NCBI GenBank assembly: GCA_030272155.1
Contig: CP126206.1
Location: 2,914,001 to 2,978,000 of the forward strand
From: Tetradesmus obliquus
Taxonomy: Eukaryota; Chlorophyta; Chlorophyceae; Sphaeropleales; Scenedesmaceae
Reading direction: 5' to 3'
Length of the DNA: 64,000 nt
Shown: positions 1 through 64,000 of the stretch, piece by piece
Numbering within the stretch: the stretch's first letter is position 1
Layout: each line of letters starts with the position of its first letter
Translations under genes and position numbers: made by a program
Notes under the pieces: generated by a model
The model's database searches: none
The model's input: the letters and a program-made list of their open reading frames with translations, nothing else
Told to the model about the DNA's origin: nothing

Positions 1-583
1 GCAGCTCGTTGCTCCAGTCTGAGCAGATCAAACCCACTAGCGACATGATGATGAACACATAGTATATTTATTCCAAGAAAACAATGAACATAACCGTAAG
101 CTAAGCGTAAGTCACCTTGAAGTAGTCGCCGCTGTCGTTCCGGACGCCAGCCGCCACCAGCAGCTCGTTGCTCCAGTCACTGCAGAAAAAGTCCAGGTCA
201 TCACCCGCGCCTGGTACTAGGCAGTAGTCTGCTGGGGCAGCGCCTGTGCAGGCACAACACAGCAAATAATAAGCAGGGCAGTGTGGAGTGTCAATGGCTG
301 CAGTGTTACAGCAGAAGAAGTCCAGGTCATCACCCGCGCCTGGTACTAGGCAGTCATCTGCCGGGGCAGCGCCTGTGCAGGCACAACACAGCATACAATA
401 AAATCGGCAGTGTGGAGTGTCAATGGCTGCAGTGTTACAGCAGGAAAGGTCCAGGTCATCATCAGCGCCTGGTACCAGGCAGTAGTCTGCTGGGGCAGCG
501 CCTGCAGGAAAATGAGATGTGCGGGGTACAGGCAGAGTCAGGGGCTGTATCAAAAAGAGCACAGGATCCGACACAACCCACAC
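1..583 (-). CDS. 3'-most exon(s): DWSNELLVAAGVRNDSGDYFK and GDDLDFFC modules
   Basis: Minus-strand segment 110-185 reads SDWSNELLVAAGVRNDSGDY then FK, with an acceptor CTGCAG and a donor-like AAG|GTGACT; read through, it ends at a TAG (101-103). The first 35 bases of the window repeat the start of the same exon (DWSNEL), so this gene probably continues past the left edge. Segments GAAPADYCLVPGAGDDLDFF recur at about 180-250, 310-375 and 440-510, again with TGTAACAC-CTGCAG junctions. Product not recognised on its own. Confidence 0.4.
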
Positions 584-1351
584 AGGGCATCAGGCAAGGC
601 AGTTGGCTGGCCCAGAAGCCAAGCCGCACACCATATCTCATTTTCCCTGAACAGATAATGATACATGATGCTGAGTCACAAAACAACAGCATCAAGTCAC
701 CTGTGAGGTCTGCTGCCGCCTTCCACACTGCCTCTGCCGCGTCCAGCTTGCCCAGCAGCCAGCCCTCCGCACCCCTCAGAAATGACAGCACCAATATGAC
801 AATGTAACACAGTTTGAATCACCTGTGAGGTCTGCTGCCGCCTTCCACACTGCCTCTGCCGCGTCCAGCTTGCCCAGCAGCCAGCCCTCCGCACCCCTCA
901 GAAATGACAGCACCAATATGACAATGTAACACAGTTTGAATCACCTGTGAGGTCTGCTGCCGCCTTCCACACTGCCTCTGCCGCGTCCAGCTTGCCCAGC
1001 AGCCAGCCCACCGCACCCCTCAGAAATGACAGCACCAATATGACAATGTAACACAGTTTGAATCACCTGTGAGGTCTGCTGCCGCCTTCCACACCGCCTC
1101 TGCCGCCTCCAGCTTGCCCAGCAGCCAGCCTACCGCACCCCTCAGAAATGACAGCATCAATATGCAACCCTCAGAAATGACAGCATCAATATAACAATGT
1201 AACACATCAAATCACCTGTGAGGTCTGCTGCCGCCTTCCACACAGCCTCTGCCGCCTCCAGCTTGCCCAGCAGCCAACCGACAGCGCCCCGTGCATCCAG
1301 CCACCTGCAGCAGCAGCAGCGGCAGCAGCAGCAGCAGCGGCAGCAGCAACA

Positions 1352-1386
<35 letters not shown>

Positions 1387-1784
1387 TAGTGGTCGAATGT
1401 TGCAGCACAGTTGCATGATCATCTAACAGCCAGCCCACTGCACCCCGCGCATCCAGCCACCTGACATAGCAGCAGCAGCAGCAGCAGCAAAGGGCAGCAG
1501 CAGACAACAGTCAAAGTCTACTGTGCAGTTGCATGATTACCCAGCAGCCAACCGACAGCGCCCCGCGCATCCAGCCACCTGCAACAGCAGCAGCAGCAGC
1601 AGCACATAACATTCATAGGCTGCTGCACAGTTGCACGATTGCCCAGCAGCCAGCCCACTGCACCGCGTGCAACCAGCCACCTGCAGCAGCAGCAGGAACA
1701 GCAGCAGAAAGCAGTCAAAGGCTGCTGCACAGTTGCACGATTGCCCAGCAGCCAGCCCACAGCACCACGCGCATCCAGCCACCT

Positions 1785-1823
<39 letters not shown>

Positions 1824-4800
1824 ATCGGTCAAAGGCTGCTGCACAGTTGCATGATTATCTAACAGCCAGCCTACTGCACCCCGCGCATCCAGCCACCTGA
1901 CATAGCAGCAGCAGCAGCGGCAGCATACACGAGTCAGAGGCAGTTGCATCAGCAGCTGTCACACCGGGAAATTGGCGCCTCACAAGAGCCTGTTACTGTC
2001 AACCCAAATGCCACATGTGGCCGGCCTCATGTACTCAGAAACACAAGAGACATGCAACATTAGGACAATGCAATACTGTCAACGCCAATCCTCCTCTGGC
2101 GGGCCTCATATGCTTGGTCCGGAAAAGAGGCATGAAACATCAGGAAGCATCAAGCCATGCAGCAAAACAACCTCAAGAAACACAAGATGAGATACAAAAA
2201 ACCCACCCAAACCACCCAAGATAAACCACCCCAAAACAACCCACCTCTGGCTTTCTTGGTGTGCTTGTTGCAGTGCCTGCAGGTACCCCAGCAGCTGCAG
2301 CGGCTGCGGCTCCGGCACAGACCCTACACGCCTTACACCTGCTGCTGCTGCTGCCGCCGCTGCTGCTGCTGCACTAACACCACCTGCTTCGTCCTCCATC
2401 ACATCTGTCAGCGGGCGAGGAGCGCGGCGCTGCTTCTTGCTGCTGCTCTTCGTTTTTGCTTTGTCAGCACCAGCAGCATCAGCAGCAGCAGCAGCATCCT
2501 CATCCTCCCAGCCTGCCGCATCATCATCTGCTGCTGCTGCTGCTGCTGCCCTGCTGCTGCCAGCCAGCCGGCCGCGCCTCTTGCCGCCCGCTGCTGCTGC
2601 TGCTGCTGCTCCCTCGCCTTCTGAGTCAGCATCGTCGTCCTCGCTGCTGCTGCTGCTGCTGCGCTCTCCGCTGACGTTGCGCTTCACCAGCAGCTTCTGC
2701 ACCTGCAGGCGCACACAAAAGACATAACATGTTAGTAACGGCAAGAAATGATACATTCAATACCATTTGTGCAGCCAGGTCAATGTCACTCACAGCTGCC
2801 CTACATCACTGTTGCGAAGCAGCCACTGAGCGTGCCCGTCTGTGTCCGAGGCATAGCTACATACAAGCGTGTCCGAGGCATAGCTACATACAAGCGTGTC
2901 CGAGGCATAGCTACATACAAGCGTGTCCGAGGCATAGCTACATACAAGCGTGTCCGAGGCATAGCTACATACAAGCGGGAAAGAAAGGGGCAGCTGAAAC
3001 ATAGCAATGGTGGCTGTTCTCACAACACTGACGTTTAAATAAACCCTCACCTCCAGCACAGTGAGCCCCAGAGCCATGGCTGTCAGGTTGAGGCCGTCCG
3101 GCTCAACAGCCTTCCCGCCATCCCACATTTCTGGCGAGCCACAGCCACAACAACCCCATATGTCCAACTCTCACCTCCAGCACAGTCAGCCCCAGAGCCA
3201 TGGCTGTCAGGTTGAGGCCGTCCGGTTCAGTGCCATGTCGCGCACACAGGCTCTGCAGCAGCGCCTTGCTCACACGCCTGGTAGCAGCAGCAGCGGCGGC
3301 AGCAGCAGCAGCATGACACAACAATCTGAGGTTCTGGATCAGTGCCGTGGCGCGCACACAGGCTCTGCAGCAGCGCCTTGCTCACACGCCTGGTAGCAGC
3401 AGCAGCGGCGGCAGCAGCAGCAGCATGACACAACAATCTGAGGTTCTGGATCAGTGCCGTGGCGCGCACACAGGCTCTGCAGCAGCGCCTTGCTCACACG
3501 CCTGGTAGCAGCAGCAGCGGCGGCAGCAGCAGCGGCGGCACCAGCAGCAGCATGACACAACAATCTGAGGTTCTGGATCAGTGCCGTGGCGCGCACACAG
3601 GCTCTGCAGCAGCGCCTTGCTCACACGCCTGGTAGCAGCAGCAGCGGCGGCAGCAGCAGCGGCGGCACCAGCAGCAGCATGACACAACAATCTGAGGTTC
3701 TGGATCAGTGCCGTGGCGCGCAAACAGGCTCTGCAGCAGCGCCTTGCTCACACGCCTGGTAGCAGCAGCAGCGGCGGCAGCAGCAGCAGCATGACACAAC
3801 ATTCTGAGGTTCTGGATCAGTGCCGTGGCGCGCACACAGGCTCTGCAGCAGCGCCTTGCTGACACGCCTGGTTGCAACAGCAGCAGCAGCAGCAGCAGCA
3901 GCAATTGAGTGGTTGCGCAACAAACACCTTGCATTTGCCGCTTGGCGCCTGCTGCGGCGCTGCGACTGATGATGCTGTTTGCTGCCTGCCATTCTGTTTT
4001 GGCTCATCAGCACCCCAGCGACCGCTGCCAGGCTGTTGCTAGTCTGCTGGATGCCTGAACCCACCTTGTGTCTGCGTTGCCGGGCCGCCTGGCGCCACGT
4101 GCCTGCTGCTGCTTTTTAGGCTTCTCCACGATGCCATGGAAGCGCAGCTTGGCCAGCACGTCCGCAACTGATGCAAAAGCCTGCTGCCAGCTGCTAGATG
4201 CTTGGACCCACATTTGTCTGCATTTCTGCCCCGCCTGGCACCAGCTGCTGCTGTTGCTGCTGCTGCTGTAATGCACCATACATATACAGGGCGGAACGCC
4301 ATCCATTCAACCAGCGTCGCCTACCTTGCGTCTGCGTTGCCGCCACGCCTGGCGGCGCGGGCTTGCTGCTGCTGCTGCTGCTGCTGCTGTAAGTGCACCA
4401 TTGAACATGGAAGAACCCCATCCATCCAACCCGTGTCACCTACCTTGTGTCTGCGTTGCCGCCCCTCCTGGCGCCCCGCGCCTGCTGCTGCTGCTTTGTA
4501 GGCTTCTCAACAATGTCGTGGAAGCACAGCGTGGCCAGCACGTCTGCGGCTGACGCGTTGGGATGCTCAGCGCTCAGCTTGTCAGCGATCTGCAACAAAA
4601 AAAGCAAGGGCACCAATGGTTGGATTAGCAGCAGATGCGCCTGCGTGCTCCGGGCCTAGTTCTGCAGCAATCTGCAAAACAAACAAGCAGATCATCGGAG
4701 GAGCAGCGGCCGCTGCTGCAGCCGTAGCATTATACAACACGATCCACGCCCACAAAAACACATCACCCCGCTCAGCCCTGCTGTCACAACCATCGTTGTC

Positions 4801-7800
4801 ATCGCCATCTGAGGAGAAGCCGGCTGCCTCAGCACCACCAACCAATCTGAGGGAGCCATATTAGAATACCCGCACCATAACACTCTTTGATTGCCCACCT
4901 TTGCCAGGTAGTCCTCATCTGCCAGGTGCTGCGCGTACAGCCGCTCCATCTGCTGCTTCTCCACGCCAAGCAGCACGTCACCACCCTCGGCCGTGCTGTC
5001 CCAACCATCGGCATCGTCGTCATCATCCGACGAGCCGCCGGGGCGCTGCTGCCGCCACTTGCCGCCGCCGCCGTTGCCTGTGAGGCCCTCGGCCCGCAGC
5101 AGACGCCGCACCTGCAGGAGCAGCAGACACAAAAGTATCGAAGCTGATCTGAAGAGCCGACGGGGCGCTGCTGCCGCCGCTTGCCGCCGCCGCCGTTGCC
5201 TGTGAGGCCCTCGGCCCGCAGCAGCCGCCGCACCTGCAGGAGCAGCAGACACAAAAGTATCGAAGCTGATCTGAAGAGCTGCCGGGGCGCTGCTGCCGCC
5301 GCTTGCTGCCGCCGCCGTTCCCGGTCAGGCCTTCAGCGCGCAGCAGCCGCCGCACCTGCAGAGGCACAAGGTTTGAAGTATTAAGCCACTAAAACAAAAG
5401 AGTGAAGCTGTTGACCGTTGCCTGTGAGACCCGCAGGCCGCAGCAGCTGCCGCACCTGCAGCAGCAGCTGCATGAAATGTTGCTGATGGAACAACAGACT
5501 GCAGTAGTACAGCTGCTTGCAACAGTTGCTGCTGGATAGGCCCTCGGAACGCAGTAGTCGCCGCACCTGCAGTGGCAGCAGGTTAGATTCATTACGATGT
5601 AGAAAAGATGAGGGCGGCGCTCCCTCCTCCCGGCTCCAACCCTTTGCACCAAAGACAAGCATTTACACACCCCTAGATATGCTAACCAAAGTCAAACATA
5701 GCGTTCAAAACACGCACCTGCTTCTCGTTCCAGCCGCCGGGCAGATCTTGAGCAATGACTGCTGCTGCTGTGGCGATGCCGCTGTCCCGGTTCTCCTGCC
5801 ACAGCTGGTGCAGCTGGCGCATCAGGCTGGGGGGCAGGCGGCCAAACTTCAGGCCAAGGCGCTTCATCTCACTGGCCAGCTGGCGTGGTCCCAACCTGCA
5901 CATAACACAATGATGCAGCACAGCATGTGTTTTGGGCAGACGTGTGTCAGCGGCAGGCTGGGCGGCTTGCCAAAGTTCAGCCCCAGGCGCTTCATCTCGC
6001 TTGCTCAGCTGGCAAGGGCCCAGCCTGCATGAATCAAGTATGGCAGCAGATCAGGAAGAGTTGAGAAGAGAGCTGCTGCAGCAGGCTGTGGGAGGCAGCT
6101 TGCCAAATTTGAGCCCCAGGCGCTTCATTTCTGACGCCAGCTGGCGGGGGCCCAGCCTGCATTGCAGCAAGCAGTGGTTTGTAGCAAAGCAAACAGCAAA
6201 TGCTGGATTGTCAGTGATACGCAAGGAAGACAAAACGGGCAGGCTGGGAGGCAGGCGGCCAAACTTCAGTCCCAGGTGCTTCATTTATGATGCCAGCTGG
6301 CGGGGGCCCAGCCTGCATGCATCAGGTGTTGCAACAGAGCAGCAGCAGAGCCGCATATGTTATGAAGCAGGGTGGTGCAGCTGGCGCAGGAGGCTGGGTG
6401 GCAGGTGGCCAAACTTGAGGCCGAGGCGCTTCATTTCTGATGCCAACTGGCGTGGGCCAAGCCTGCATGAATCAAGTGCTGGCATACATCATTAGAATCT
6501 GATACATATTGATAGCATTCAACGTCACATTATCCAGTACAACATCAGTATAACATGCTATTATAACAAAAGGCCGCCCCTGCCGCCCATCTGCGCCATC
6601 AGCCGCGCCATGTTGGCCCTGTCAGCGCACAGCTGCTCGAACACAGAATGTCATATATAATACAATCAAACACATATTGTCTACGTTGAAATCACATAAT
6701 CTAGTACAACATAATATAATCAACGGCCGCACCTGCCGCCCATCTGCTGCATCAGCCCCGCCATGTTGGCCCTGTCAGCGCACAGCTGCTCGAAGAAGGT
6801 CACCAGCCGCTGCTCCTGGGCGGGGTTCAGCAGCCGCGCCATGGTGCGGGGTTTAGGCCTGCATGTCACAAAGGAGTGCAACCAAGGGTTCAGTGCATCA
6901 CAGAGAAAGGTGTTGCGGCGCTCAGCGGTCGCGCCATGGTGCAGGAAACTGAAACGGTGAGCGCAACGCATGCTTAATATTGGGTGTCAATGCATTGAAG
7001 ATGGTGCACGATGCTCCAAGGACAGCTGGCAGCTGGGTTGAAGTCGTGGATATGGCGCAGTGCTGCTGGTGAACCCATATGTTGATCAAAAAGCGGATGG
7101 TAGAAGAGAGCCACCACATAACTGCCATGCATCATGCATGCGCAGCTGCAACGCTCAGCTCAGCAGCACGCCAGCAGCAGCAGCAGCAGCAGCTACTCAC
7201 ATGCCGCCAGCGCCCTTGCGGCCTCCAGCGGCATGCCTGCAGGGCGCAGTGGTAACACACAAAAGTGAAGAAAGGACATCAAATCCAGCAGGTAGTTAAG
7301 CTCAACACGTGTTCTGAAGCATCAGCGCACATGCTTGGCCTACAGCACTTTGAAGGCATATTTGACAATATCGCTGGTGTTGATGAAGCACGTGCAAATG
7401 CTTCACCTGCTCCTGAGGTGCGCTACACTTCGAACCACATCAGCAACATTACTCATTTCGCGCATGACAAGAAACGGAACGGCCAAGCTCGACTCACGTG
7501 CCGCCCTCCTGTAGGTGGTACTCGTCTCTGATGTGTACTCGCAGTCTCTTAGAAGCTGCCAAAACAGCAGGTCCACACACACCATGCCGGCAAAATTCAA
7601 TGCATGACTTCCGTAGAGCACACTGTTGCTCTTACAAACCACATCGACTAGTGCACAACACAGCCGCAACACAAATGCACGACAGACACAAACCAGACAC
7701 CCAAAGCCCCATCCACAACCACTCACGTGCCGCCCTCCTGCAGGTGGTACTCATCCCGGATGTACTCGCAGTCCCTCGGAAGCTGCCAGAACAGCACGTC

Positions 7801-8397
7801 AACACACACCATGCCAGCCACGCCCGCACAAAATTGCTTCCTAGATTCATAAAGCAGCAGACCTGCGCTCATACGCGCCGGTATTTGTGATAGCACGACT
7901 ATAATGAACAGGCTTTCTTCACTCACGTGCCGCCCTCCTGCAGGTGATACTCGTCTCTGATGTACTCGCAGTCTCTTGGAAGCTGCCAGAACAGCAGGTC
8001 GGCACACCATGCTAGCCACACACGCACACATTCAGTACAAAATACGTCAGCCACATAAATCACTGGAATTGCAAAGACTGGAGCATGGCAAAAGCCACAA
8101 AACAGCTGTACTATCAGGGAAAACCAGCCACTCACGTGCCGCCCTCCTGCAGGTGGTACTCGTCCTGTATGTACTCGCAGTCTCGCGGCAGCTGCCAGAA
8201 CATGGCACATCTGCCCACAACTGTGAAACAGCAACACAAAGAGCTAAATGCACACACAGCCAAACTCACGTGCCGCCCTCCTGCAGGTGGTACTCATCCC
8301 GGATGTACTCGCAGTCCCTCGGAAGCTGCCAGAACAGCACGTCAACACACACCATGCCAGCCACGCCCACACGCCGCCGCTGCTCCCGCTCCAAATC

Positions 8398-8440
<43 letters not shown>

Positions 8441-11400
8441 GCCGCATCCCCTGCTGCTGCATCCCCTGCTGCTGCCGCATCCCCTGCTGTTGCTGCTGTT
8501 TCAAGAGGCGGTGGGGCGATCTTTGCAAAGAGGCCGCGCACCACACGCGTGGCAAGCTGAAGCACGGGGCGGTGCTCTGCTGACTTGCGCAGCGAGGCAT
8601 CCGACAGCAGCGCGTGGAACTGGCGCAGCACCGACAGCTGCAAATACAAGGGTGTGAACAAGACAGCAGCCGGGCATGAGTTCAGGAGGGAGATGGGTGG
8701 CTGGCGAAGGAGAAGATGCACATCATATGCCGCGCAGTGAGGCGTCTGACAACAGCACATAGAACTGCCGCAGCACTAACAGCTGCAGCAAGACAATGTG
8801 AATAAGGGGCGGCAATGCACAAAGTCAACAGGATTTGTTTGGCTGGCCTTGCAAAACATCAGAATGAAAACGTGAAATGTGAATGGTGGCGAGTTGAAGC
8901 ACGGGGCGGTGCTCTGCTGACATGCGCAGCGAGGGCGTCTGACAGCAGCGTGTGGAACTGACGCAGCACTGACAGCTACGCAAGAGTAGAAACGGAAAGG
9001 GAAGCAGCGTGGCACAAGGTCAGCAGGACTTGAAGGCGCTGTGCAAACAATACCCTCAGGAGTCCTCCTTTGTCTGCAGCCACACGGTTCCCAAGCGCTC
9101 AGATCACATACATAGTTGGACAGAACATGGTGGCCAGGGTGAGGCATGAGCAGTGCTCTGCTGTTTCGTGCAGCGATGCATCAAACAACAGCGCGTGGAA
9201 CTGGCTCAGCACCGACAGCTGCGGCAAAAAAATTACATCAAGCTTTAAATGTAACAATACAACTGCAAATTCTCACCTGGTAAAGCACTGGCTCCAGGTT
9301 GACATGCTCCGGCAGCACCAGCCGCCACAGAAACGACACCACCGTGTGGTTCAGTGCCGCGCTGTTGCCCCTGCTGTAGCCTGCCAGCAGCCAGCTGTAG
9401 AAGTGCACCACGGTGGTACTTTGCAGGACGCAACCCCCTGGCAGAGTAACAAAAACAAAGGCAACGAGCCGCCAAGATGACACATATCATGGTAAGGCGG
9501 CCCACCTGGTACAGCACTGGCTCCAGGTTCACATGCTCCGGCAGCACCAGCCGCCACAGAAACGACACCACGGCGTGGTTCAGTGCCGCGCTGTTGCCCC
9601 TGCTGTAGCCTGTTCTGGCAACCAGCTGTAGAAGTGCACCACAGCGGTACTTTGCAGGACTGGACTCCTAGGCAAATCAAAAAATTTGAAACGAAACGAC
9701 ACGACGACAGATACCAAGGTAAGGAGACCCACCTGGTAGAGCACCGGCTCCAGGTTCACGTGCTCTGGCAGCACCAGCCGCCACAGAAATGACACAACCG
9801 CGTGGTTCAGTGCCGCGCTGTTGCCCCTGCTGTAGCCTGCCAGCAGCCAGCTGTAGAAGTGCACCACGGCGGGCACTGCGAACTCCCTCCGCAGCAGTTC
9901 CCGCAAGTCTAGCGCCACTTCTTTGGTGTCGTCATCCTGCGTATGAAAGCATAGCAGCAACCTGGCGTATCAGCAGCAGCCAGCCGTAGAAGTGCACAAC
10001 GGCATGCACTGCAAAATCATGCTTGAACAGTTCCCAAAGGTCCAGGGCCACCTCCTTGGTGTCTTCGTCCTGCGCATGCAAAGTAACACGCCATTTGAGG
10101 ATGATGGTTGGTAGAAGTGCACCACGGCAGGCACTTCGAACGCCTGGTCCTCGCCAGGTCCTCGCCATCATATGTCGATCAGTCACAGCATGCGGACATA
10201 ACCACACTCACGATGCACATTGTTACATATTGTCAGCTCACCTGCTCCTCATCGCTGCCAGAGCCGCTGCCTTCCTCGTCTTCAAGCTCCTCCAACACAG
10301 TCACTAGACTGCAGCCACAGCTGGAAGCGCCAAAAAGCACTCAGTATGCCGCCGCAGTCATGTACATACACACAATTAAGCCCCGCAACCACCCTGCATT
10401 GTTTGTGACACGAGGTTGGCTGCTGCAGCAGCTACGCTGGTGAAACCCTCACCAAACAGCGCTCATCGAGCGAAAAACGTTACAAAAACAGGCTTGGGGC
10501 CAACCCACCTCCTCCTCATCGCTGCCTGAGCCGCTGCCTTGCTCCGACTCAAGCTCCTCCAGCATAGGCCTCCGGGCCTTGGCAGCAGCAGCAGCAGCAG
10601 CAGTGCCAGCAGCAGTAGCAGCGCCTGCTGCCAGGCTGCCCTGGCCTTCGCTGTCGCTGTCATCTGCCACATTGTGCTGCTGCTGCTGCTGCTGCTGGGG
10701 GTCCACCTCATCACCAAGGCCAGCAGCAGGAGAAGCTGCCCTAGCAGCAGCAGCAGCAGCAGGTGCTGCAGGTGCTTCAGCGTCACCTGCTGCTTCTGCT
10801 GCTGCTGCCGCAGCATCGCTTCTGTCACCGCCCTCGCCCTCTGCTGCTGCTGCTGCTGCCGCTGCTGCTGCAGGCGCTGCTTCTGCTGCAGGCGCTGCTT
10901 CTGCTGTTGCATCTGCATCTGCTGTTGCATTTGTTGCTGCTTTTGCAGCAGCGGCCTCTGCTGGACCCTCCTGGTCCTGCTGCTCACCCTGCTGCTCACC
11001 CTCCTCCTGCTGCTGCTGCTGCTTGTCCGCCCCGTCCTGCTTGTTCCCCTCTTCTTCTTCCTCCTCGTCATCAGCAGCAGGGGCTGCGGCCTTCCTCCTG
11101 CCGCCGCCTCCCCTGCGCTTCTTCTTCTTCACTATGAACTTGCCATCGTCACGCGCCAGCAGCCTGTGAAATTCACAGTTGCAGCAGAGGATGTGTTAGA
11201 AGTGAAACCTAGGTTATCAAGCCTCCCCTGCGCTTCTTCATTTTCACTATGAACTTGCCATCGTCACGCGCCAGCAGCCTGTGAAATTCACAGCAACAAC
11301 AAAAGAGGTTCAATGTGATGTGGTGTCTTCACTGCCCATTGTCACGCGCCAGCAGCCTGTGAAGTCCGCATTAACAACAAAGGAGCTGTTGGGTGTGATG

Positions 11401-18599: not shown

Positions 18600-18656
<57 letters not shown>

Positions 18657-19813: not shown

Positions 19814-19871
<58 letters not shown>

Positions 19872-20291: not shown

Positions 20292-20341
<50 letters not shown>

Positions 20342-20429
20342 TAGAGAGGCCCTGTTGCTAGTCCCATGAGAGACGCGAGCAGCTCCCGACAGCAGCAGGC
20401 GCGCTTGATGGACGCGAGGATGGCGAACT

Positions 20430-20467
<38 letters not shown>

Positions 20468-21648: not shown

Positions 21649-21682
<34 letters not shown>

Positions 21683-23827: not shown

Positions 23828-23875
<48 letters not shown>

Positions 23876-52142: not shown

Positions 52143-52551
52143 GCAGCAGCGGCAGTGGCAGCAAAAGCAGCAGCAGCAGCAGCAGCAGCAGGAGCAGGGG
52201 TGGCAGCAGCTGACTGCGCATGGAGCAAGCTATGTGCCAGTGCAGCTCGTGTTTGTATGCTTAGATGCTGCAAGTGTGTGCAGCAGCAATGCCCTGCAAC
52301 CGCTGCAACCATTGCAACCACCTTAACTGCAGCAAATGGCAGCACTGTCATATGCTTTACATATGCTTCACAGCAGGACATATACATGCCTTTCGGTCTG
52401 TTCAGAATTCAGTGTTGTGCATTATCTGTGTTGGTAATGTTGTTGCTTTGTTGAACTGCAGGGGGAGTTTGCTCCCAACACACGCCTGTGCAGCGCAGTG
52501 CGCCTGTTTGAAGGCCAAGTGCATGGCGCAGGTGCGCAGCAAGCTTAACAG

Positions 52552-52583
<32 letters not shown>

Positions 52584-52750
52584 ACAGCAGCAGCAGCAGC
52601 AGCAGAAGCAACAGAAGCAGCAGCAGCAGCAGCAGCTGGACAGCAGCATCAGCTCGACGGTAGCAGCAGCTCCACCGATGCAAGATGAGGAGCCGCACCA
52701 GTGGCCCGAACCGCAGCAAATCGACATTGGCAGGAGCAGCAGCAGCAGCA

Positions 52751-52801
<51 letters not shown>

Positions 52802-54528
52802 TGCATAGGATCAGCTCCAGTACAAATCGTACAGGCTGATGCCACATTAGCAGCTTTAGATGATGACGCAGCAGCAGTGATTACATGCAGTAATTGTATG
52901 CCTAGCTCTCCGCAGCGGCACTGCAGGCACTGCAGGCATGCGCCCTGGAACGGCACAACCAGCAACGTATTTTTGTTATAAGAAGGAGCAGCAACGTGCG
53001 GAGGGATGGTGCAAACCGCAACAGCAGTAGTAGGACCTGGCCGAGCTTGCTATGGATGTCAGACACAAGTTGAGCGCACGTGACGCGTATTCATGTTCAT
53101 ACCACACTCTCTGTTCAAGGCCTCTTTGGTTGACGCTTCTCGCCTGTTTGTACCTCTTCTCACGCCACCCAGCATCAATGATAGAACACTGCCTGATCAC
53201 TGGCACCTTACTGCCCTGCCTCAAATGCACTACAGAGTCTGTTGCCGTACGGCCAAATGGTGACCTGGCACTGCTGGACAAGTACGGATGCCAAACTTCA
53301 CCGACCACAAACTATGTCCCTGCCCTGCTTCTGCATTGCCATCATTGCAGAGTCTGTTGCAGTGCGATCCAATGGCGACCTGGCACTGCTGGATAAGTAC
53401 GGCAACCTGTACGAGGCGGTAACCAGCAGCAGCAGCAGCAGCAGCAGCGCCGGCGGCGGCGGCTGGCAGCTGCAGCAGCAGCCGGTGGCGCGGCTGGGTG
53501 CTGGGCGGCCGCTGGGCTACCACTTTGACGATAATGGGGATATGGTGATATGTGACTCTCTGAAGGTGATCATCGTACTGTGCTTGTTGTTGTAACATGT
53601 AATCTGGTGTTATGAGCATGCTGAGGGCGCTCTCGTCACTCACAAACCTCTTGAATCATCACCTGTTATGTGAATATGTTACTGTTCTTGAGGTGTGTTG
53701 TCGGCTGCAGTGGGGGCCATTAGCTGGGTGCTGGGCGGCCGTTGGGTTATCGTTTTGATGCTGATGGGGACCTTGTTATGTGTGATTCGCTCAAGGTGAG
53801 TATCATGCTGCTTGCTATGTAACATGTCAACAGATGTTGTGTTCTGTAACATGCTGCAGGAGTCCTCAATGGTGAGCCTGCCTGGTAGTGTTATGTTATC
53901 GTGTCATTTTGCTCGAGGATATCGTTTTATCGTGGTGCATCAGTGTTGCACAACGCTGCTGCTCGCAACCGCTGCTGTCACCCACTCTGGCTGCTGTCAT
54001 CCCTGCTGTCATCTCTCACACTTTTTGCCTGAACAGGGCCTAGTCAAGTATGACTATTCAACTGCCGAGGTCACTCTTCTGGCCAGCCGTGTTAGTGACA
54101 ACTCGCCAATCGATCCAGGCAGCGAAATAACATATGCGAATGACCTGGCGATTGCAGCAGATGGGAAGATCTACTTCACGTCATGCAGCGACATTGTGCC
54201 AGCGCGCAACAGCGAAGGGTTTTATGACACCTTCAAGGCCTGGACCCTGGGCATGGCACAGGTAAGGGTTCAGCGAGGCTTGGCCTTGGGGGTTAGGGTT
54301 TAGGCATGATGTAGGTGAGGGTTTAGCAAGGCAAGGTGCAGGGTTCAAGGCCTGGGTACGGCGTGCAGTGGATCAGGGCTGATGGTTCCCAAAGTGCATT
54401 GCAGCTAGAACATGCAGCAAGGCAAGATATGCTTCAGTCGGTGCGGCCGCCAAAGTGAAACATGCGGCTACTCATTAGCTCAGCACACTCTGCACAGTAC
54501 ATCTGAGCGCAATGTTACCGACACTACA

Positions 54529-54560
<32 letters not shown>

Positions 54561-55676
54561 AGGGCCTGCCCCAGGGTCGCCTGCTGATGTATGACCCAGC
54601 CACCAAGGAGACAGTAGTACTAGCCAAGGTAAGTGTGAGAGGGTTCAGGGTTTTGCAGCCTCAAAACAATCACACATCTGCCTCCACCGAGGTTCGAACT
54701 CGGGACCTTTCGCTTACGAAGCGAACGCTCTACCAGCTGAGCTATAGAGGCTTCTGAGGAATTGAGCATGGGGAACAGGACGGGGGCACCAGTCTTGGCG
54801 TTTGGCGGCAGCGTCGCAACGCTGGTGCGCGCTGCTGCTGCAGGTGCTGTACTGCCGTGCCGAGCTATATGGTTGGCGTGCCGCCCTCATAACGCTGTAC
54901 ATCGGTTGGTGTGGGACATGGTCTGTCTTGCAGCAGTGCATGCTTTTGAGAAAGGCCGTAGGGCAGCGTGGGCTGTGTCGAGTGACCTTGGGGTACCCCA
55001 GCTGGTGGAGCAAGTGGCTGTGAGAGCAGCAGTAGGTGCTTTTTGGGATGCGCTTGCGGACTTTGCTGCTATGGCTAGGGTGCCGTCACGGTATAGAAAT
55101 CGGCTGCTCACACAACAGCCATTTATTGCCTGGCATACTGTGTTGCGTGGCAATAGTTTGTGTGTGGTGCGTCGGTGATGGCCTTCTTCTCACTGTGTGT
55201 ACATGCTTTCTCTGTGAGCTTCTGACATGCCAGAGCTAGCCGTCTTGCTTTGCAGGAGCTGTGAGTTGCCGTATCGCTGCTGCAAAATGTAGTTGTGCGG
55301 CCCTTGCAGCAGCTGGCTTGTTCTCTGCTCTCTCTCCCCAGTTTGTCGCCTCAGGCCACCGCCTGCCAGGCTGTGTTTCTGCTGGTGGGTGTTGTTCTGT
55401 GGGTTCAGCCCGCCCGCTGCACTGCATAAAGTGCAGCTTGCTGTCACTGACACTGTTTACACTAGTCCTACCTTTGTTTAGCATCAACACTGCGTGTGCT
55501 GTGACTGACGGCTTTGCCTGCAAGGCCATATGTCAAGTTACACACACAGAGACTTTCTGGGGTGAGTCTCCTTGAGTGACAGCCTGTTTTGCTGAGTCAT
55601 CTGCGACTTTCCAGGTTTTTGGGTGTTCGTTGCAACGTAGTTGCCTGTGCACACCGTGTAACCCCTCTTCTCCTTC

Positions 55677-55749
<73 letters not shown>

Positions 55750-56635
55750 AGGTGTTCCTTTCAGACCTTGTGCTGCCTGCTGAAAGTGTCGACTGACCGC
55801 TGCTGCTGGTGCTGCTGCTGCCGCTGCTGCCAGGGCTTCTACTATGCCAATGGCGTGGCCCTTTCTGCTGATGAGAGCTATTTGGTGATGGCAGAAACAG
55901 ACCGCATCCGGCTGCTGAAGTACTGGCTTGAAGGCCCAAAGGTGGGCAGATCTGGGTATGGTTCAGCAATGGCGTCTGATCAGGGTTTTGGGTGTTGGGT
56001 GCCGCGGGCATCTGTGAGAGAAGTCATGTGCCTGCTTCCACAATACATGAAAGGGTGTTCAGAAAGTTGGTGGGAGCCCCTGGCAGAGAACCTCCCTGGC
56101 CTACATGAAGGCGTATCAACCCATATACTGTAAAGATGGACAGTATAATATGAAAAAAGCAAATCTGTGCACCTTCAAGCAGTGCTTGTCCAGGAGACCC
56201 CCTATGTGTCTCATCAGGTCTCTCAACAGCCCTGCTGCTGCTGCTGCTGCTGCTGCTCTGCTGCCGCCACGCTATAAAACGTTTGCAGAGCACCTCTGCG
56301 GGCCCCCTTTATGGCAGGTCCAACCACATCAAAAGATGCACTTTGTTGTCTATTTGTCTCACCAATAATCACAAGAAAATTGCTGCTGCGGCTGCTGCGG
56401 CTGCTGCCAGGCGGGCACTTACGAACCGCTTGCAGAGCACCTGCCCGGCCCTCCCGGTGGCGTGTCCAACCAGTGCTGTCTATCACCTTTACTTCATCTC
56501 ACAACAACACTGCTGCTGCTGCTGCTGCCGCCGCCAGGCGGGCACTTATGCACCTCTTGCGGAGAACCTCCCCGGTCCTCCTGGTGGCGTGTCCAACCAG
56601 TGCTGTCTATCACCTTTACTTCATCTCACAACAAC

Positions 56636-56677
<42 letters not shown>

Positions 56678-56783
56678 GCCGCCAGGCGGGCACTTATGAA
56701 CCTCTTGCGGAGAACCTCCCCGGTCCTCCTGGTGGCGTGTCCAACCAGTGCTGTCTATCACCTTTACTTCATCTCACAACAAC

Positions 56784-56822
<39 letters not shown>

Positions 56823-56952
56823 GCCGCCAGGCGGGCACTTATGAACCTCTTGCGGAGAACCTCCCCGGTCCTCCCGACGGCGTGCCGACATATGTATTGG
56901 AAACGCATGCTGTGTCGACTACCCACTATGTGTCTCAACCCTCACGACAACC

Positions 56953-56983
<31 letters not shown>

Positions 56984-59829
56984 TGCTACTGCTGCTGCTG
57001 CTGCTGCTGCCAGGCTGGTACCTACGAACCACTGGCAGAGAACCTGCCCGGCCCTCCTGACGGCGTGTCAACCGCACCTGATGGCAGCTTCTGGGTTGGC
57101 CTGGTGTCACCCATTCCCCCAATTGCCAAGCTGTTGAGAGACCCTACCATTCGCGCATTGTATGTGTGGCTGCCAACCTGGCTGCGGCCATCGCTGAAGA
57201 AGTGGGGCGCTGTGGTGAAGGTGAGGTAGTTTTTGAGATATTTTTGAGGTTAGTTTGATGTTTCAAAGGGTGTTAAACGACCCCAGCGACAGCTGGCAGC
57301 TGCTGGGTGGTCCTGGTGTCACCCATTTCTCCCAATGCTAAGCTGCTGAGAGATGCCACCATCAGGGCGCTGTATGTGTGGCTGCCAACATGGCTGAAAC
57401 AACCGCTCAAAAAGTGGGGCGCTGTTGTCAAGGTGAGGCTTACAGCGGTTTTGGGTTTGAGGTTTCAGTTGTTTCGGGCTTCCTCAGCGCCTGAAGGCAG
57501 CTTCTGGGTGGGCCTGGTGTCACCCATCCCGCCAATCGCCAAGCTTTTGAGAGACCCAACCATCAGGGCGCTGTATGTGTGGCTGCCCAGCTGGCTGAAA
57601 CCACCTCTCAAGAAGTGGGCGCTGCCGTGAAGGTGAGGCTTGCAGGGCGCCTTTCGTTAGGGATTTTAGTTTTGGTTCGAGGGTTGAAAGGCAGCAAGGG
57701 GCCTCGGCGCCAGATGGAAGCTTCTGGGTGGGCCTGGTGTCACTCGTTTCTCTGAACGCGCAAATTTAAACACTTGCTGCTGCTGTTGCTTTTCTTTTGC
57801 AGATCTCCGGCAATGATGGTTCTGTTTTGGATTTCCTCATGGACCCCACTGGAAGCCACGTCAGCACCGTGTCAGCAGCACTGGAGCATGGCGGCAAGCT
57901 CTTCCTGGGCAACCTTGCAGGAAACCACGTCAGCTACGTGGAGCTTGCAGGAAACGCGCCCAGGCTTGCAGGAAATGCAGCCGGCAATGATCAGCAGCAG
58001 CGGCGGTCGCCGGGTGTGTTTGCAGCAGCAGCAGACCTACCCCCAGCAGCAGCAGGGGATCAGGGGGATTGTGAGCTGTGTGGGCTGACTGGAGAGACGG
58101 ATGTGCTGGAGGATGAGCCAGCAGCAGCAGCAGCAGCAGAGGGCGAGCAGCCAGTGGCGAGCTGCAACAAGGATGCAGCAGGTGAGCAGCGCTGTATTTT
58201 GGGAGGCATGAATGCATCCACCACCGTCGAAGTGTTCACATTCCTTTACAAGCAGTTGGGGGGCAACAGCACTGCAGATATGCTTGCTTACTGAGCATGT
58301 GCTTCACTGCTTGAATGAAGATTGCTGCAGCTTTGTTTCTTCCTTATGTCGTGTCAGCTGCTGAAGTGTCAGCCTGCCCTATATCAAACCCGAGCTGCTC
58401 CCCTCGCTAAACCGCAGGTGCCACAGGCATCGTCCACAGCCCCCTTGACATGCATGGCCTTGCTGTGGGTGCATAGCAAAGTCACAATTCAGGGCAGGTG
58501 GTCGTCGTGAGACAACAGCTACTGCTATGCTCCTCAAACCCCAAACCCCAAACCCGTGCTGTGTAACACCGCTAAACCCTGCAGGTGCTACAGGCATTGA
58601 TCACAGCCTTCTAGACACGGTTCTTCTCTGGATGCACGGCAAGGTTGCAAACAACAAAGTGGTTGTGTTCAGCAAGAGCTACTGCCCCTACTCACATAAA
58701 GCAAAGAGGGCGCTGCTGAGCTTGTTAGCCCCAGAGCAGATGCTGGTGGTTGAAGTGGACCAGCTTCCCCAACACGACAGCGGGGACATTGAAGCTGATA
58801 CCCTGATGGTGCGTTTGTGGTGAACTTTGGCTGCCTTTGCATGCCTTCTTTGTTTGTGTCGTGTTTGGTTTGTTGGCGTGAATTGTGGGGTATTCAGCAA
58901 GAGGCTGCCCCTGCTCACACAAGGCCAAGCGGGCGCTGTTGAGTCTGTTAGCCCCGGAGCAGATGCTGGTGGTTGAAGTGGATCAGCTGCCGCAACACGA
59001 CAGCGGGAACATTGAAGCAGACACACTCATGGTGAGTCCATTTTTTAGCTTTGACTGCATTTCATGCCATCTGGGGACACACATTGTCCTGCGTGTGCTG
59101 CTTTTACATCATGGGTCCTGCTGTAGGTTGCTGTTGGGTTGGCTGTTGATGGTTCGGTTGGGGCGTCTGCAGCCGCAGCAGATGCTGGTGGTGGAAGTGG
59201 ACCAGCTTCCTCAGCATGACAGCAGAGCCATTGAGGCAGACACTCTGATGGTGGGTTGACTTCTGAGTGCTGTTCTTCTGGGCCCTGCAGTAGGTTGCTG
59301 TTGCAGTAGGTTGCTGTTGTGTTTGCTGTTTGTGGTTTTGGTTCGGGCGTCTGATGCAGCCTGAGCAGATGCTGGTGGTGGAAGTGGACCAACTGCCGCA
59401 ACATGACAGCGGCGCCATCGCAGCAGACACACTCATGGTCTGATTTGATTTTACTTGGGTTGCATGTACGCGTCGCCTGTACTGTAATGTTGTGAAAGCT
59501 GCGAAAGATTGCCGCTGGTTTTAGTTTGAGGAGCAGTGCTCAGCAAGTGCTACTCACACAAGGCCAAGATGGCGCTGCTGAGCTTGCTACAACCTGAGCA
59601 GATGCTGGTGGCGGAAGAGGCAACATTGATGCATGTTCAATGCAGACACACTCATGGGGAGTTTGTTGTAATCTTTAGCTGCCTTTGTGTTTTTGTGTGC
59701 GTGAAAGCTGAGCAGGGTTGCTGTTGGTGTTGATCTTGTGGTGGTGTCCAGCAACAGGTGCTGCCCTTACCCGTAGGAGGTCAAGAGGGTAATGCTGAGC
59801 TTGCTGCAGCCCGAGCTGCTGCTGTTGCC

Positions 59830-59864
<35 letters not shown>

Positions 59865-60239
59865 AGGAGTTTGTGGGTGATGTCAATGACTCAAGATCCG
59901 CGTGCTGTCTCACTCATTTGCCCTTGCTGCTGCTGCTGCTGTTGCCACTGCGGCTTGCTGCTGCTGCTGCTGCTGCCGGTGCTGCTGCTGCTGCTGCTGC
60001 TGCTGCAGGATGCGCTGGCCCAGGTGACTGGCGCGCGCACGGTGCCCCGTGTGTTCATTGGCAACAAGTTTGTAGGGGGCGGGGATGACACAGCACGCCT
60101 TGCAGAGAATGGAAAACTAAGGAAGCTGCTAGCTGAAGTGGGGCTGCTGCAGCAGCAGCAGCAGCCGGCAGCAGCAGCAGCAGCAGCAGCAGCAGGAAGT
60201 GGTGATGCAGATGACGATGAATATGCTGATGTTGAGTGA
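51587..60239 (+). CDS. Strictosidine-synthase-like beta-propeller continuous with a C-terminal glutaredoxin domain
   Basis: Model: 51587-51668, 51951-52045, 52462-52531, 53351-53565, 54037-54261, 54563-54628, 55834-55941, 57014-57220, 57803-58181, 58585-58808, 60009-60239. All are GT-AG with matching phase, about 633 residues. The N-terminus has one hydrophobic helix (GGLLALCAAGIVALISS), a signal anchor as in plant SSL/APMAP proteins. SSL motifs: RLFEGQVHGAESVAVRPNGD, GRPLGYHFDDNGDMVICDSL, GLVKYDYSTAEV, ITYANDLAIAADGKIYFTSC, GRLLMYDPATKETVVLAK, FYYANGVALSADESYLVMAE, RIRLLKYWLEG, LPGPPDGVSTAPDGSFWVGL. Then KVVVFSKSYCPYSHKAKRAL, TVPRVFIGNKFVGGGDDTAR and a D/E-rich tail form a glutaredoxin with a CPYS active site. 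Plant SSLs lack strictosidine synthase activity where tested and resemble lactonase-type propellers. No start codon in context begins the glutaredoxin part; a shorter SSL form could end at the in-frame stop near 58292-58294. Confidence 0.7.
53236..53300 (+). repeat. Upstream copy of the ESVAVRPNGDLALLDKYG exon start
   Basis: An ACAG acceptor at 53232-53235 is followed by ESVAVRPNGDLALLDKYG, repeated 115 bp further on at 53351 where the exon continues. A donor-side copy of the same exon (GAGRPLGYRFDADGDLVMCD, then SLK|GTGAGT) lies downstream at about 53711-53793. Confidence 0.85.
54679..54751 (-). tRNA. tRNA-Thr (anticodon CGT)
   Basis: On the minus strand a 73-nt cloverleaf: acceptor stem GCCTCTA/TGGAGGC (one G-T pair), D arm GCTC-AGCTGGTA-GAGC, anticodon stem TTCGC/GCGAA with loop TTCGTAA (anticodon CGT, reading ACG threonine codons), five-base variable loop AGGTC, T arm CCGAG-TTCGAAC-CTCGG, discriminator A. 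No intron; CCA not encoded. A TTTT run follows within about 15 bases as a pol III terminator. It lies antisense in the intron after SSL exon 54563-54628. Confidence 0.93.
56065..56892 (+). repeat. Five to six upstream copies of the GTYEPLAENLPGPPDGV exon start
   Basis: (CTG)n then CCGCCGCCAG or CTGCCAG precedes GTYxPLAExLPGPPxGV at about 56412, 56534, 56684 and 56829, plus weaker copies near 56072 and 56280. Each is followed by the same spacer, starting CCAACCAGTGCTGTCTATCA. The intact exon is 57014-57220. Three copies (56480-56830) are almost identical. Confidence 0.85.
57285..57772 (+). repeat. Three downstream copies of the LVSPIPPIAKLLRDPTIRAL exon end
   Basis: Donor-side copies of SSL exon 57014-57220 at about 57300-57432 (VSPISPNAKLLRDATIRALY, donor GTGAGG), 57488-57630 (GSFWVGLVSPIPPIAKLLRD, donor GTGAGG) and 57707-57770 (truncated). 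All lie 3' of the intact exon. Confidence 0.85.
58413..59875 (+). repeat. Multiplied glutaredoxin active-site exon, with variant active sites
   Basis: An acceptor-side copy of exon 58585-58808 lies upstream at 58413-58500. Downstream are copies at 58890-59032 (GCPCSHKAKRALLSLLAPEQ, GTGAGT donor), 59165-59250, 59355-59438, 59540-59650 (KCYSHKAKMALLSLLQPEQM) and 59750-59870. The intact copy has CPYS. The others read CPCS, C-YS with residues lost, or CCPYP before a stop, and have frame breaks, so they are unlikely to be used together. Confidence 0.8.
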
Positions 60240-60990: not shown

Positions 60991-61352
60991 CCTTGCAGGG
61001 GCCTTTTGCACTTGATGATCCCTGTCAGGTGCGTTCGTGCACTTCAGAAGTTAAATCGACACCTTATATTGTGTTTAATGTGCTATTCCTGCCCTGATAC
61101 GTGTGCGCACGATGCTTTATAGTGGCCTGCCAGCGACCTGCGGTGTCCTGCTTACGGGCGAACGTAACACGCATGCGGGGTGCACCTCGACAAAGCATAG
61201 ATCTGTGATCAGCAGCGTTCAGCGAATGTGACAGTTGCAGTTCGAAACCGCGTTCAAGTACAGTTCCAGCTCCCCATCAGATGTTCGCACTGATTTGTGC
61301 TGAGTTGCTACACTAGAAGCAATTAACCGTAAAACAATTACTATAAGTAGTC

Positions 61353-61686
61353 ATGCGTAGTGCTGCAGCAGTTGTGCTTGTGGTATGGATGCTACTGTGC
61401 TTCAGCAGGCCGGGGCAGCCAGGTGAGCATTAGCGAAGCAGCCAAGCGACCAAGATCGATTATAACGTGAAATATGAAACGCATGTGCTTGCAAGTGCAA
61501 CGTTTGCAGCACGGATGCCCTATCATACGCTATGCTAATCGCTTGGCCTCGCTACAGCTGGCTCGTGATACGTGGCGGTGCCACACCTTGATGCACGTGG
61601 CCGCTGTTTTAGGCTAATGGTGCAGCACGCGTAGCTGCTGCCGCGTGTCGTAACCACGTGAACTTGCTGCTGCTACTGCTGCTGCA

Positions 61687-61723
<37 letters not shown>

Positions 61724-64000
61724 TGTTGCTGCTGCCGAGGAGCCCCAAACCCTTCTGGCTAGGGTTCACAGCGATGACTGTGTTACAACCCAGCGTGTGT
61801 CAACGGCACGTGTGGCAGGAGGGGCCTCCCCTGTTGTCGGCCTGGCTGCTGTCACTGCCAGCAGCGTCAAAGTTGCAGCAGCAGCAGTGGGCCTCAAATA
61901 TATTGAGGACCTTCCAGTCGAGTGCTGGGTGCTGCTAGAGGGGGCAGAAACAAAAGAAGCAACAGCAGCAGCAGTGAAGGCGCTGCTGGCTGGCTCAGGT
62001 GCGAGTGGTGTTGTGGTGCCTGTGCAGCTTGGTTTGGCGTGCGTTTCAAGTTGCTATATGTGACCGGACTGGGAATGCAGCACCTGTGGTGGGCCTGGCT
62101 GCTGTCACTGCCAGCAGCGTTGAATTTACAGCAGCAGCAGTGGGACTGAAATATATTGAGGACCTGCCAGTCACCTGTTGGGTGCTGCTAGAGGGGGCAG
62201 AAACACAAGAAGCGACAGAAGCAGCAGTGAAGGCGCTGCTGGCTGGCTCAGGTGCGAGTGGTGTTGTGGTGCCTGTGCAGCTTGGTTTGGCGTGCGTATT
62301 AATTGCTACTTTTGGCATGACTTGGGGTGCTGCACCTGTGGTTGGCCTGGCTGCTGTCACTGCCAGCAGTGTTGAAGTTGCAGCAGCAGCAGCAGCAGCA
62401 GCAGTGGGACTCAAATATTTTGAGGATCTGCAAGTCACCTGGTGGGTGCTGCTAGAGGGGGCAGAAACACAAGAAGCAACAGCAGCAGCAGTAAAGTCGC
62501 TGCTCGCTGGCTCAGGTGTGCTGCAGTGTACACTGCCACGTATGCTGGGCACACGGCTGTGTGCTGTGCACACGGCTGTGTGCTGGGCACATGGCATGGC
62601 ATGGTATGCTGTGCACATGGCATGGTATGCTGTGCACATGGCGTCTGTGCTTACTGCTGGTTGAATCGTCCTTATGTTGTGTGATATTTGTCATTAGCGA
62701 GATAGCGTTTACACGCCAGGGAGCGCCACATGCACATGCTGTCGTGTGGGTTGATGGCTGGCAGTAGCAACAGAGTGCCTATGTATACGCTGCCGCTGTG
62801 CTGCAAGTTGCTCAATTACGACTCTGCCAGCGCTGCTTCCACATCACCACCTGCCGGCATTTTGTTTGACGCCATCTAGCAGATGAATTACAATCCTCAA
62901 TATGTGCCAAAATTGCTCTATTTCTGCCGCCGCAGATGACGCAGTCAGTGCTGCTTCTACATCTACACCTTCCGCTGGCATCCGCTTTGACGTCATCGAG
63001 CAATTGATCAACATGTTCAAACACATGGCATTCAACTGCTTGCTGCTGCAGGTGGTGACGCAGTCAGTGCTGCTTCTACATCTACACCTTCCGCTGGCAT
63101 CCGCTTTGACGTCATTCAGCAATTGATCAACATGTTCAAACACATGGCATTCAACTGCTTGCTGCTGCAGGTGGTGAAGAAGTCAGTGCTGCTGCTGCAT
63201 CTACACCTTCTGCCGGCATCCGCTTCGATGTCATCAAGCCGAACCGCCTCAAGCGCAAGTTTGCACAACCAGCCGCCAGCAGCAGCAGCAGCAGCATCAA
63301 GCCACGACAGAACCTTGCAGCTGCCCACAGCCACAGGGGCCCTGTGCCAAGGAGGATCCTTGACATGTGGCTTGGCAGGACCTCAAGTAATGTCACTCGC
63401 CGCCACCGCGCAAATCTTCACAGCAACCGCACGCGCAGCAGCATCAAGAATACTGCGCAGGCAAACCCTGCTGCTGCTGCTGCTGCTGCTGCGGGAGGGG
63501 TGAAGGCTCCCAAGGGCTTGCCTTCTGAGTGCAGTGCAGGGACGTGCTCCTTGTGGAACCTGAACAGGATCAAGGCGCCGGAGACGTGGGCGGCGCTGGG
63601 ATCGCTGATCCCTTTTGCACAGATCACCAAGAAGGCGATGATCATCGGTGAGTGCGCCTCCACCCAAAGAACAGGTTGAGATTCTGGTAGCAAATATGGA
63701 AAAAAAAAACCTAGAGAATAAGGAGTGGGTGAATGACCCAGTGAGTGCAGCAGTGAGCGGTAAAGGTTGAGGGTGTGGGCAGCGGCACATACAGCAGGGG
63801 CACCCTTGCCCCCAGAGTGCTTGACATGTTATAGCTGGCAGCTGCAGCTTGTGGAGGTTGAGTAGGCTTAAAATTCCAGAGACGTGGGCGGCTCTGGGGT
63901 CGCTGATCCGTTTGCACAGATCACCAAAACAGGCGATGCTCATTGGTGAGTGCGCTCCCGCTGCTGCTGCCGCAGCTGCTGCTGATGTGACATCACTGCC
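61353..64000 (+). CDS. Unrecognised secreted or membrane protein, 5' part (continues past window)
   Basis: Model: 61353-61422, 61723-61998, 63171-63647, continuing; junctions are GT-AG and phase 1 throughout. MRSAAAVVLVVWMLLCFSRP is a signal peptide. Exon 2 reads VAAAEEPQTLLARVHSDDCV, then GGASPVVGLAAVTASSV, AVGLKYIEDLPVECWVLLEG and AETKEATAAAVKALLAGSG. Exon 3 reads GGEEVSAAAASTPSAGIRFD, a basic stretch PNRLKRKFAQ, Ser and Ala runs, SECSAGTCSLWNLNRIKAPE and TWAALGSLIPFAQITKKAMI. I cannot place it in a family. Start chosen because it supplies a clean signal peptide and a phase-matched GTGAGC donor. Confidence 0.55.
62065..62518 (+). repeat. Two downstream copies of the VVGLAAVTASSV...LLAGSG exon end
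   Basis: Two long copies (about 62068-62250 and 62328-62518; period near 260 bp) of the donor-side two thirds of exon 61723-61998: APVVGLAAVTASSVEFTAAA, VGLKYIEDLPVTCWVLLEGA, LLAGSG|GTG. Each could remain open in one frame, so splicing into mRNA is conceivable. Confidence 0.8.
62545..62642. repeat. Short repeats of GGCATGGTATGCTGTGCACA and CACACGGCTGTGTGCTG
   Basis: CATGGCATGGTATGCTGTGC occurs twice in tandem, preceded by two CACACGGCTGTGTGCT units, in the intron after the exon-end copies. Confidence 0.8.
62840..63170 (+). repeat. Three upstream copies of the AVSAASTSTPSAGIRFDVI exon start
   Basis: Copies at about 62820-62875 (diverged: SASAASTSPPAGILFDAI), 62936-62997 and 63053-63115 (nearly identical to each other), each with a GCAG-type acceptor. 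The spacer starting CAATTGATCAACATGTTCAA is copied with them. The intact exon starts at 63171. Confidence 0.85.
63850..63955 (+). repeat. Downstream copy of the APETWAALGSLIPF...AMIIG exon end
   Basis: Repeats ETWAALGSLIR and QAMLIG|GTGAGT, matching the donor side of exon 63171-63647 with a one-base frame change. It lies 3' of the intact exon. Confidence 0.8.

Follow-up and report, generated by a model that had tools for sequence, protein, structure and literature searches.

A 64,000-nucleotide (nt) stretch of the green alga Tetradesmus obliquus genome, contig 16 from 2,914,001 to 2,978,000 (the window), raises the question of how introns come to hold repeated partial copies of the exons beside them, each on one particular side of its exon. 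An initial annotation had described such arrays in all seven genes of the window, with extra copies of the acceptor-side half of an exon only upstream and of the donor-side half only downstream. We confirm that half-exon copies with this polarity are real and strong. They were found in three window genes, Timeless, a strictosidine-synthase-like gene and glutaredoxin, and in the ClpR2 gene on contig 1; the claim stands for these rather than for all seven. As the affected genes are unrelated, the cause is not tied to one protein, as had been argued. As to their origin, we tentatively propose that the copies are leftover halves of diverged versions of the same exon.

Exon positions were set independently by protein homology, using a splice-aware protein-to-DNA aligner with other algal proteins as templates; the assembly searched has 17 contigs and 104,662,953 bases. 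For the strictosidine-synthase-like gene, Chromochloris (P0001) and Raphidocelis (P0003) templates gave identical seven exons, the last end excepted, and a transcript-derived template (P0005) was concordant over its six exons, the first start excepted. Timeless, on the minus strand over 23 kb, was placed by spliced alignment of a Monoraphidium protein (P0121). Filler exons at 15155-15298, 7636-7782 and 9277-9306 were removed from this model, 17737-17759 was merged into exon 6 and doubtful ends were left uncounted; exon 7 starts at 14700 in the polarity counts, a position revised afterwards to 14674. The glutaredoxin model is based on one template (P0008) and the Pfam Glutaredoxin match, with ends beyond the aligned stretch set by eye. 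The 31 exons of the three genes, each with 30 nt of flank, were then compared with their own flanking introns, and matches with an exon overlap below 15 nt were discarded.

Of the 102 matches that this search gave, 97 were same-strand and 5 opposite-strand. The predicted side was occupied by 93 of the 97 same-strand copies, an asymmetry that, scored against chance as had been suggested, has a binomial p of ~5e-23; counted per exon side, 36 of 40 sides were concordant in every match (p ~2e-7). All 53 copies anchored at the 5´ end of an exon cross the acceptor, and 31 of 32 anchored at the 3´ end cross the donor. ClpR2 follows the same rule in 20/20 copies. None of the 97 same-strand matches spans an exon, which bears out the view that these are not whole exons duplicated for mutually exclusive splicing. 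Anchored copies take in 21-96 nt of the exon on the upstream side and 34-147 nt on the downstream side; for a 655-nt exon, the copies on its two sides measure about 21-59 nt. In a stricter set of 98 copies, from which those with exon identity below 0.7 or consisting largely of CTG/CAG were removed, at least one anchored half-copy is present at 18 of the acceptors and 17 of the donors, out of 28 each. No same-strand copies were found for Timeless exons 1 and 20 or strictosidine-like exons 1, 3, 4, 5 and 7. The genes and the main arrays are as follows.

116-22994, minus strand: Timeless (Tof1-like) gene, 22 exons used, median intron 801 bp, from Pfam TIMELESS and spliced alignment.
21359-21511, minus strand: Timeless exon 2, intact; four acceptor-side copies at 21565-22043, the outermost exon start near 22079.
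19347-19565, minus strand: Timeless exon 4, intact; seven acceptor-side copies at 19613-20577 and one donor-side copy at 19146-19271.
18466-18597, minus strand: Timeless exon 5, intact; an acceptor-side copy at 18936-19004, another start at 18847, and two donor-side copies at 18213-18406.
15270-17325, minus strand: 19 copies of a 42-nt exon start, GKNLARHGRFKSTL, within one Timeless intron, with no fixed end for the intact exon.
12209-12357, minus strand: Timeless exon 10, intact; four acceptor-side copies at 12430-12856 with starts spaced 114-119 bp, and one donor-side copy at 11968-12079.
9733-9936, minus strand: Timeless exon 13, intact; acceptor-side matches at 9974-10144 and two donor-side copies at 9274-9647.
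8270-8637, minus strand: Timeless exon 14, intact; three acceptor-side copies at 8732-9222 and four donor-side copies at 7492-8219.
5760-5895, minus strand: Timeless exon 16, donor end not fixed; four acceptor-side copies at 5954-6467.
3175-3277, minus strand: Timeless exon 19, intact; five acceptor-side copies at 3333-3897 and one donor-side copy at 3042-3105.
1216-1304, minus strand: Timeless exon 21, intact; five acceptor-side copies at 1427-1925 and four donor-side copies at 685-1141.
52501-57950, plus strand: strictosidine-synthase-like gene, seven exons found, from Pfam Str_synth and spliced alignments.
57014-57220, plus strand: strictosidine-like exon 6, intact; five acceptor-side matches at 56074-56884 and three donor-side matches at 57294-57743.
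58608-58808, plus strand: glutaredoxin exon, donor end fixed and start not fixed; five downstream matches at 58890-59827, three of them donor-anchored.

The arrays that the initial annotation had placed at 7490-9215, 18215-19010 and 56065-57772 are thus as it described them, and so is that at 697-1950, where homology puts the intact exon at 1216-1304 instead of 1219-1305. At 58413-59875 the pattern holds for the donor side only. Two further regions named there, 39640-40975 and 45250-46320, contain local duplicates, and a Pfam search found no gene in either; the last, 26045-28080, has many overlapping local repeats.

The outer boundary of the copies is well preserved. AG is retained in 52 of 55 acceptor-side copies and GT in 30 of 32 donor-side copies (82 of 87 together), in line with the initial observation, and the retained site is often another variant of the consensus than the real one. 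The exon part of donor-side copies is ~0.87 identical to the exon, and beyond the junction the resemblance is mostly lost within a few bases: ungapped identity is 1.0 and 0.97 for the two bases of GT, 0.58-0.87 at positions +3 to +6 and ~0.34 from +7. Among 85 copies, the intron flank is homologous to that of the exon in 38, not detectably so in 37 and uncertain in 10. Exon identity is about equal in the flank classes (0.865 with an undetectable flank, against 0.887), and in 5 of the 85 an exon part at least 94% identical adjoins an unrelated flank; the copy of Timeless exon 14 at 7721-7829 has an exon part 99% identical and a flank that is unrelated. The inner ends of the copies are ragged. 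A donor-like site occurs at 0 of 57 inner ends, compared with 3% of random intron windows, and an acceptor-like site at 10% of 40, compared with 9%, which is no excess. Rejoining of half-exons through internal splice sites was accordingly rejected as a candidate, none being above chance at the inner ends.

Polarity in itself does not point to an unusual process: wherever a single junction is duplicated and one exon has to stay intact, the partial copy comes to lie on the side of that junction. The simplest account is therefore passive: slippage or unequal exchange, aided by CTG/CAG tracts, would copy an intron tail together with an exon half, the copies would be neutral, drifting at every codon position, and the introns would grow. 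Geometry suffices here for the polarity, and the 38 homologous flanks, the regular spacing possible at Timeless exon 10 and the arrays that are clear tandem repeats fit such a process. So does repeat content, since (CAG)n/(CTG)n tracts of at least four units, often directly at acceptors, make up 6.4% of the window and 1.9-3.7% of five control blocks from other contigs. The initial annotation had likewise proposed tandem duplication across splice junctions, and its halves and its polarity stand; the 37 copies with undetectable flanks, whose exon parts are about as similar as the others, and the low ratio of nonsynonymous to synonymous differences (pN/pS) described below weigh against that mechanism. 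We regard passive duplication as an unlikely explanation.

The differences between exons and copies are mainly synonymous. With copies of fewer than 12 codons excluded (86 of 97 used, in 36 arrays), the array-averaged pN/pS between exon and copy is 0.19 (95% interval 0.145-0.242), with 262 nonsynonymous changes observed against 777 expected. The regression pS = 0.302 + 0.63 pN indicates synonymous difference where nonsynonymous difference is close to zero. Simulated on the same exons, passive duplication with neutral copies gave 0.54-0.64. Gene conversion between an exon and its own copies within one genome, by which exon parts would be kept alike as introns diverge, was also considered, and several copies do combine a similar exon part with an unrelated flank. 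However, its simulated ratios were 0.52-0.80 for one or five copies (whole-half resets, small grid of rates), and arrays with a single copy (0.20, 15 arrays) do not exceed those with two to three copies (0.21, 0.25) in this ratio, which is lowest for four or more (0.135, 10 arrays). This mechanism appears improbable to us. Hypermutation at CpG is a less favoured source of the differences; in one pair viewed by eye, about half of the synonymous differences were transversions.

Several features suggest that the copies do not code at present. The frame is shifted by 27 of 32 indels (Timeless exons 6 and 15 being excluded from the distance bins of this analysis), and 2163 codons of copies contain 5 in-frame stops. 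In the inner and middle copies of arrays of at least three, copy-specific changes are even over the codon positions (30, 33, 35). In ClpR2, a synonymous excess (51 to 18) appears only when 4 of the 20 copies, of identity 0.71-0.84, are set aside; these four have 9 synonymous and 39 nonsynonymous changes. We read the copies as non-functional now and descended from functional sequence, because of the frameshifts, the even codon positions of inner copies, the low-identity ClpR2 copies, the inner ends without sites and the pS intercept.

The opposite view is that half-exons are used or selected, so that alternative transcripts or exchange with the exon keep their protein equivalence in place. Copies also differ from each other mainly at synonymous sites (pN/pS 0.23), even inside one array, and decoy donors score near real ones (9.68 and 9.94), although decoy acceptors are lower (7.63 and 11.09). 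In the 19-copy Timeless array, 41 third-position differences stand against 30 others, and flanks of several classes diverge by 0.26-0.35, compared with 0.09 in the exon part. An array on contig 6, in a gene that we take to be phosphomannomutase-like, has an exon and three downstream halves that encode an identical ~39 residues with many synonymous differences; from the exon to the farthest copy there are 10 synonymous and 0 nonsynonymous changes. Against use or selection stand the missing second splice site at inner ends, the frame-shifting indels, the in-frame stops and the four low-identity ClpR2 copies, and we consider it doubtful. In a stronger form, the half-exons would be a standing reservoir of protein-equivalent halves with one splice site each, in which exchange with the intact exon, or use in some transcripts, would have prevented most amino-acid changes; this too we hold to be unlikely.

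The reading that we prefer, with a probability of about 0.4, is that the half-copies are leftover halves of diverged versions of the same exon, produced by repair that could match only exons. It builds on the observed polarity, one-sided sites, often unrelated flanks, ragged inner ends, mostly synonymous differences and frameshifts. A break would occur inside an exon, and the only template for the broken end would be the exon in a diverged gene version (an allele or that of a hybrid partner), because the introns would be too different to match. Repair would copy the remaining exon, its splice site and some intron from the diverged version, and the second broken end, unable to pair, would simply be joined. 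The outcome would be an intact exon and, beside it on the only side that geometry allows, the former half together with the splice site and intron flank that belonged to it. Such copies would begin with synonymous differences and decay later, and some would be amplified as local tandem repeats. The spliceosome would skip them by exon definition, which pairs an acceptor and a donor facing each other across an exon. We infer the break and its repair, the diverged templates, the joining and exon definition, the last from the match of the intact exons to conserved proteins. Timeless exon 19 also favours this reading: its five acceptor-side copies differ from each other by a pS of 0.03 and from the exon by 0.22. 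Local tandem amplification contributes to the arrays.

A number of observations weigh against this proposal. Gene versions diverged by ~0.3 at synonymous sites were not seen in the sequences compared. The ClpR2 protein of another T. obliquus assembly (OEZ85_007551, P0122) differs from contig 1 at one residue in 301, and a strictosidine paralog from that assembly (P0032) differs from contig 10 at ~1 residue in 255; such near-identical proteins suggest low diversity between assemblies. This contig 10 paralog also shows no half-copies. Some synonymous sites have three states (by eye), so that more than two diverged versions would be needed. The five copies of Timeless exon 21 have a common spacer sequence and differ mainly at synonymous sites, and they look like one duplicated array whose synonymous divergence arose after its formation. 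Copy-specific changes in outermost copies lean to the third position (16, 17, 30), as do those in all arrays with at least two copies (75, 81, 130), the latter count resting on 133 less filtered matches with Timeless exon 6 in the wrong frame; later codon counts use frame 0 and exclude the Timeless exon 4 match at 20685-20724. Finally, synonymous changes number 60 and nonsynonymous changes 57 when all 20 ClpR2 copies are taken together. Hybridisation with relatives, exceptional diversity in the population or selection acting on the copies may be involved.

As the initial annotation supposed, the copies enlarge introns. The introns of the three window genes comprise 24,378 bases, of which local duplications make up 0.55 and copies derived from exons, taken by themselves, 0.27. 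Local direct duplications account for 39.5% of the window and for 11.0, 3.7, 3.3, 10.4 and 11.3% of the five 40-kb control blocks. Along contig 16, five 5-kb samples up to 2.4 Mb have 0-17% local duplication, and nine samples between 2.7 and 3.4 Mb have 14-50%; inverted local duplication makes up 17% of one such sample at 1.4 Mb. The higher density on contig 16 may reflect intron-rich genes. Because genes in the control blocks, those on contigs 1 and 6 included, carry similar half-copies, we read the window as differing from the rest of the genome in density and not in kind. Three-base periodicity of local repeats is weak when scored without annotation, being present in 27 of 242 window repeats and 4 of 122 from the control blocks. 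A mating-type region as the cause was rejected: seven RWP-RK matches lie on contigs 4, 6 and 12. No sex-linked region is needed, because the pattern is also present on contigs 1 and 6 and contig 16 has no RWP-RK match. An introner or transposon was rejected as well for the one array searched. A 751-bp test piece from it gave 91 matches among 40 scored of 143 candidates; outside the locus these were short, mostly 25-70 nt, and fell largely on query positions 454-518, which are CTG-rich.

Half-copies are also found in other assemblies. In protein translation, an open reading frame (ORF) on a Joint Genome Institute (JGI) contig (P0055) runs through strictosidine-like exon 6 into a donor-side half-copy, and a second ORF from another assembly (P0164) has ClpR2 exon 7 followed by a donor-side half-copy. 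In Monoraphidium minutum Timeless (P0121), HLGLEPMLYQ is doubled where the exon homologous to window 9733-9936 ends, the window exon being one with donor-side copies; the doubling is possibly a half-copy annotated as coding. The pattern probably extends beyond the T. obliquus genome, given the two ORFs and the doubled Monoraphidium motif. These ORFs also bear on the suspicion that two diverged haplotypes were interleaved during assembly. Unmerged alleles would likewise give synonymous differences and foreign flanks, but up to seven copies per junction, decayed copies with frameshifts, the absence of any N in the 264 kb read and the recurrence of half-copies in other assemblies make an artefact very improbable.

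Other features of the window may be noted briefly. A tRNA-Thr (CGT) gene lies at 54679-54751 on the minus strand, antisense within intron 4 of the strictosidine-synthase-like gene. A leucine-rich-repeat gene at 23600-25000 on the plus strand is divergent from Timeless, and long low-complexity open frames follow at ~29-36 kb. Outside the window, the annotated T. obliquus strictosidine paralog on contig 10 (P0032) stops at the end of exon 7 plus one extra residue where relatives continue, and it is possibly a broken gene model.

The arrays provide natural tests of splice-site choice, with up to seven similar acceptors at Timeless exon 4 and four similar donors at exons 14 and 21. The correct site among the decoys is the one that the conserved protein requires, and it would be marked only by its partner across the exon. 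Gene predictors may suffer from half-copies. If the copies derive from diverged versions, introns would record exon-only-matching repair between genomes, in events that could be counted and dated. If they are selected, they would be a new kind of coding element; the reservoir in particular would be a new kind of genomic element, a selected coding half-exon with a single splice site, repeated along many genes. Half-copies may also help to explain the long introns of T. obliquus, which average 462 bp, compared with 230-302 bp in the other four green algae tabulated with it (PMC5966456).

Among known systems, the AGGT model of intron gain, to which the initial annotation had related the arrays, is similar in that an exon segment is locally duplicated next to splice signals. 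That model requires both AG and GT from the duplicated exon segment, and thus a second splice site within it, whereas the inner ends in T. obliquus have none above chance, so that the relation is not upheld. Tandem mutually exclusive exons are whole exons with both splice sites and coding-like conservation. They share with the arrays the repetition of exon sequence in introns with such conservation, but whole exons with both sites were not found in the T. obliquus arrays. Silent donor cassettes, such as those of yeast mating type or antigenic-variation pseudogenes, combine a complete expressed copy with incomplete silent ones. The arrays resemble them in having one complete copy beside incomplete ones with similarity limited to the shared part; they differ in involving many exons of unrelated genes without protein change, and for conversion there are only indirect hints here. 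A literature search found no report describing such arrays, a weak negative as most subscription papers lay outside its scope, and passages of two Haematococcus genome papers make no reference to them. The closest case met with in the literature is a potato RNA-dependent RNA polymerase (RdRp) gene, in which a single tandem duplication across an intron-exon boundary gave a new intron that is spliced there (PMC4974935). As in T. obliquus, the duplicated piece crosses one exon boundary and carries splice signals along. The potato duplication is one event in one gene, whereas the T. obliquus copies occur at most junctions of several genes, without an inner splice site, with mostly synonymous divergence and often with unrelated flanks.

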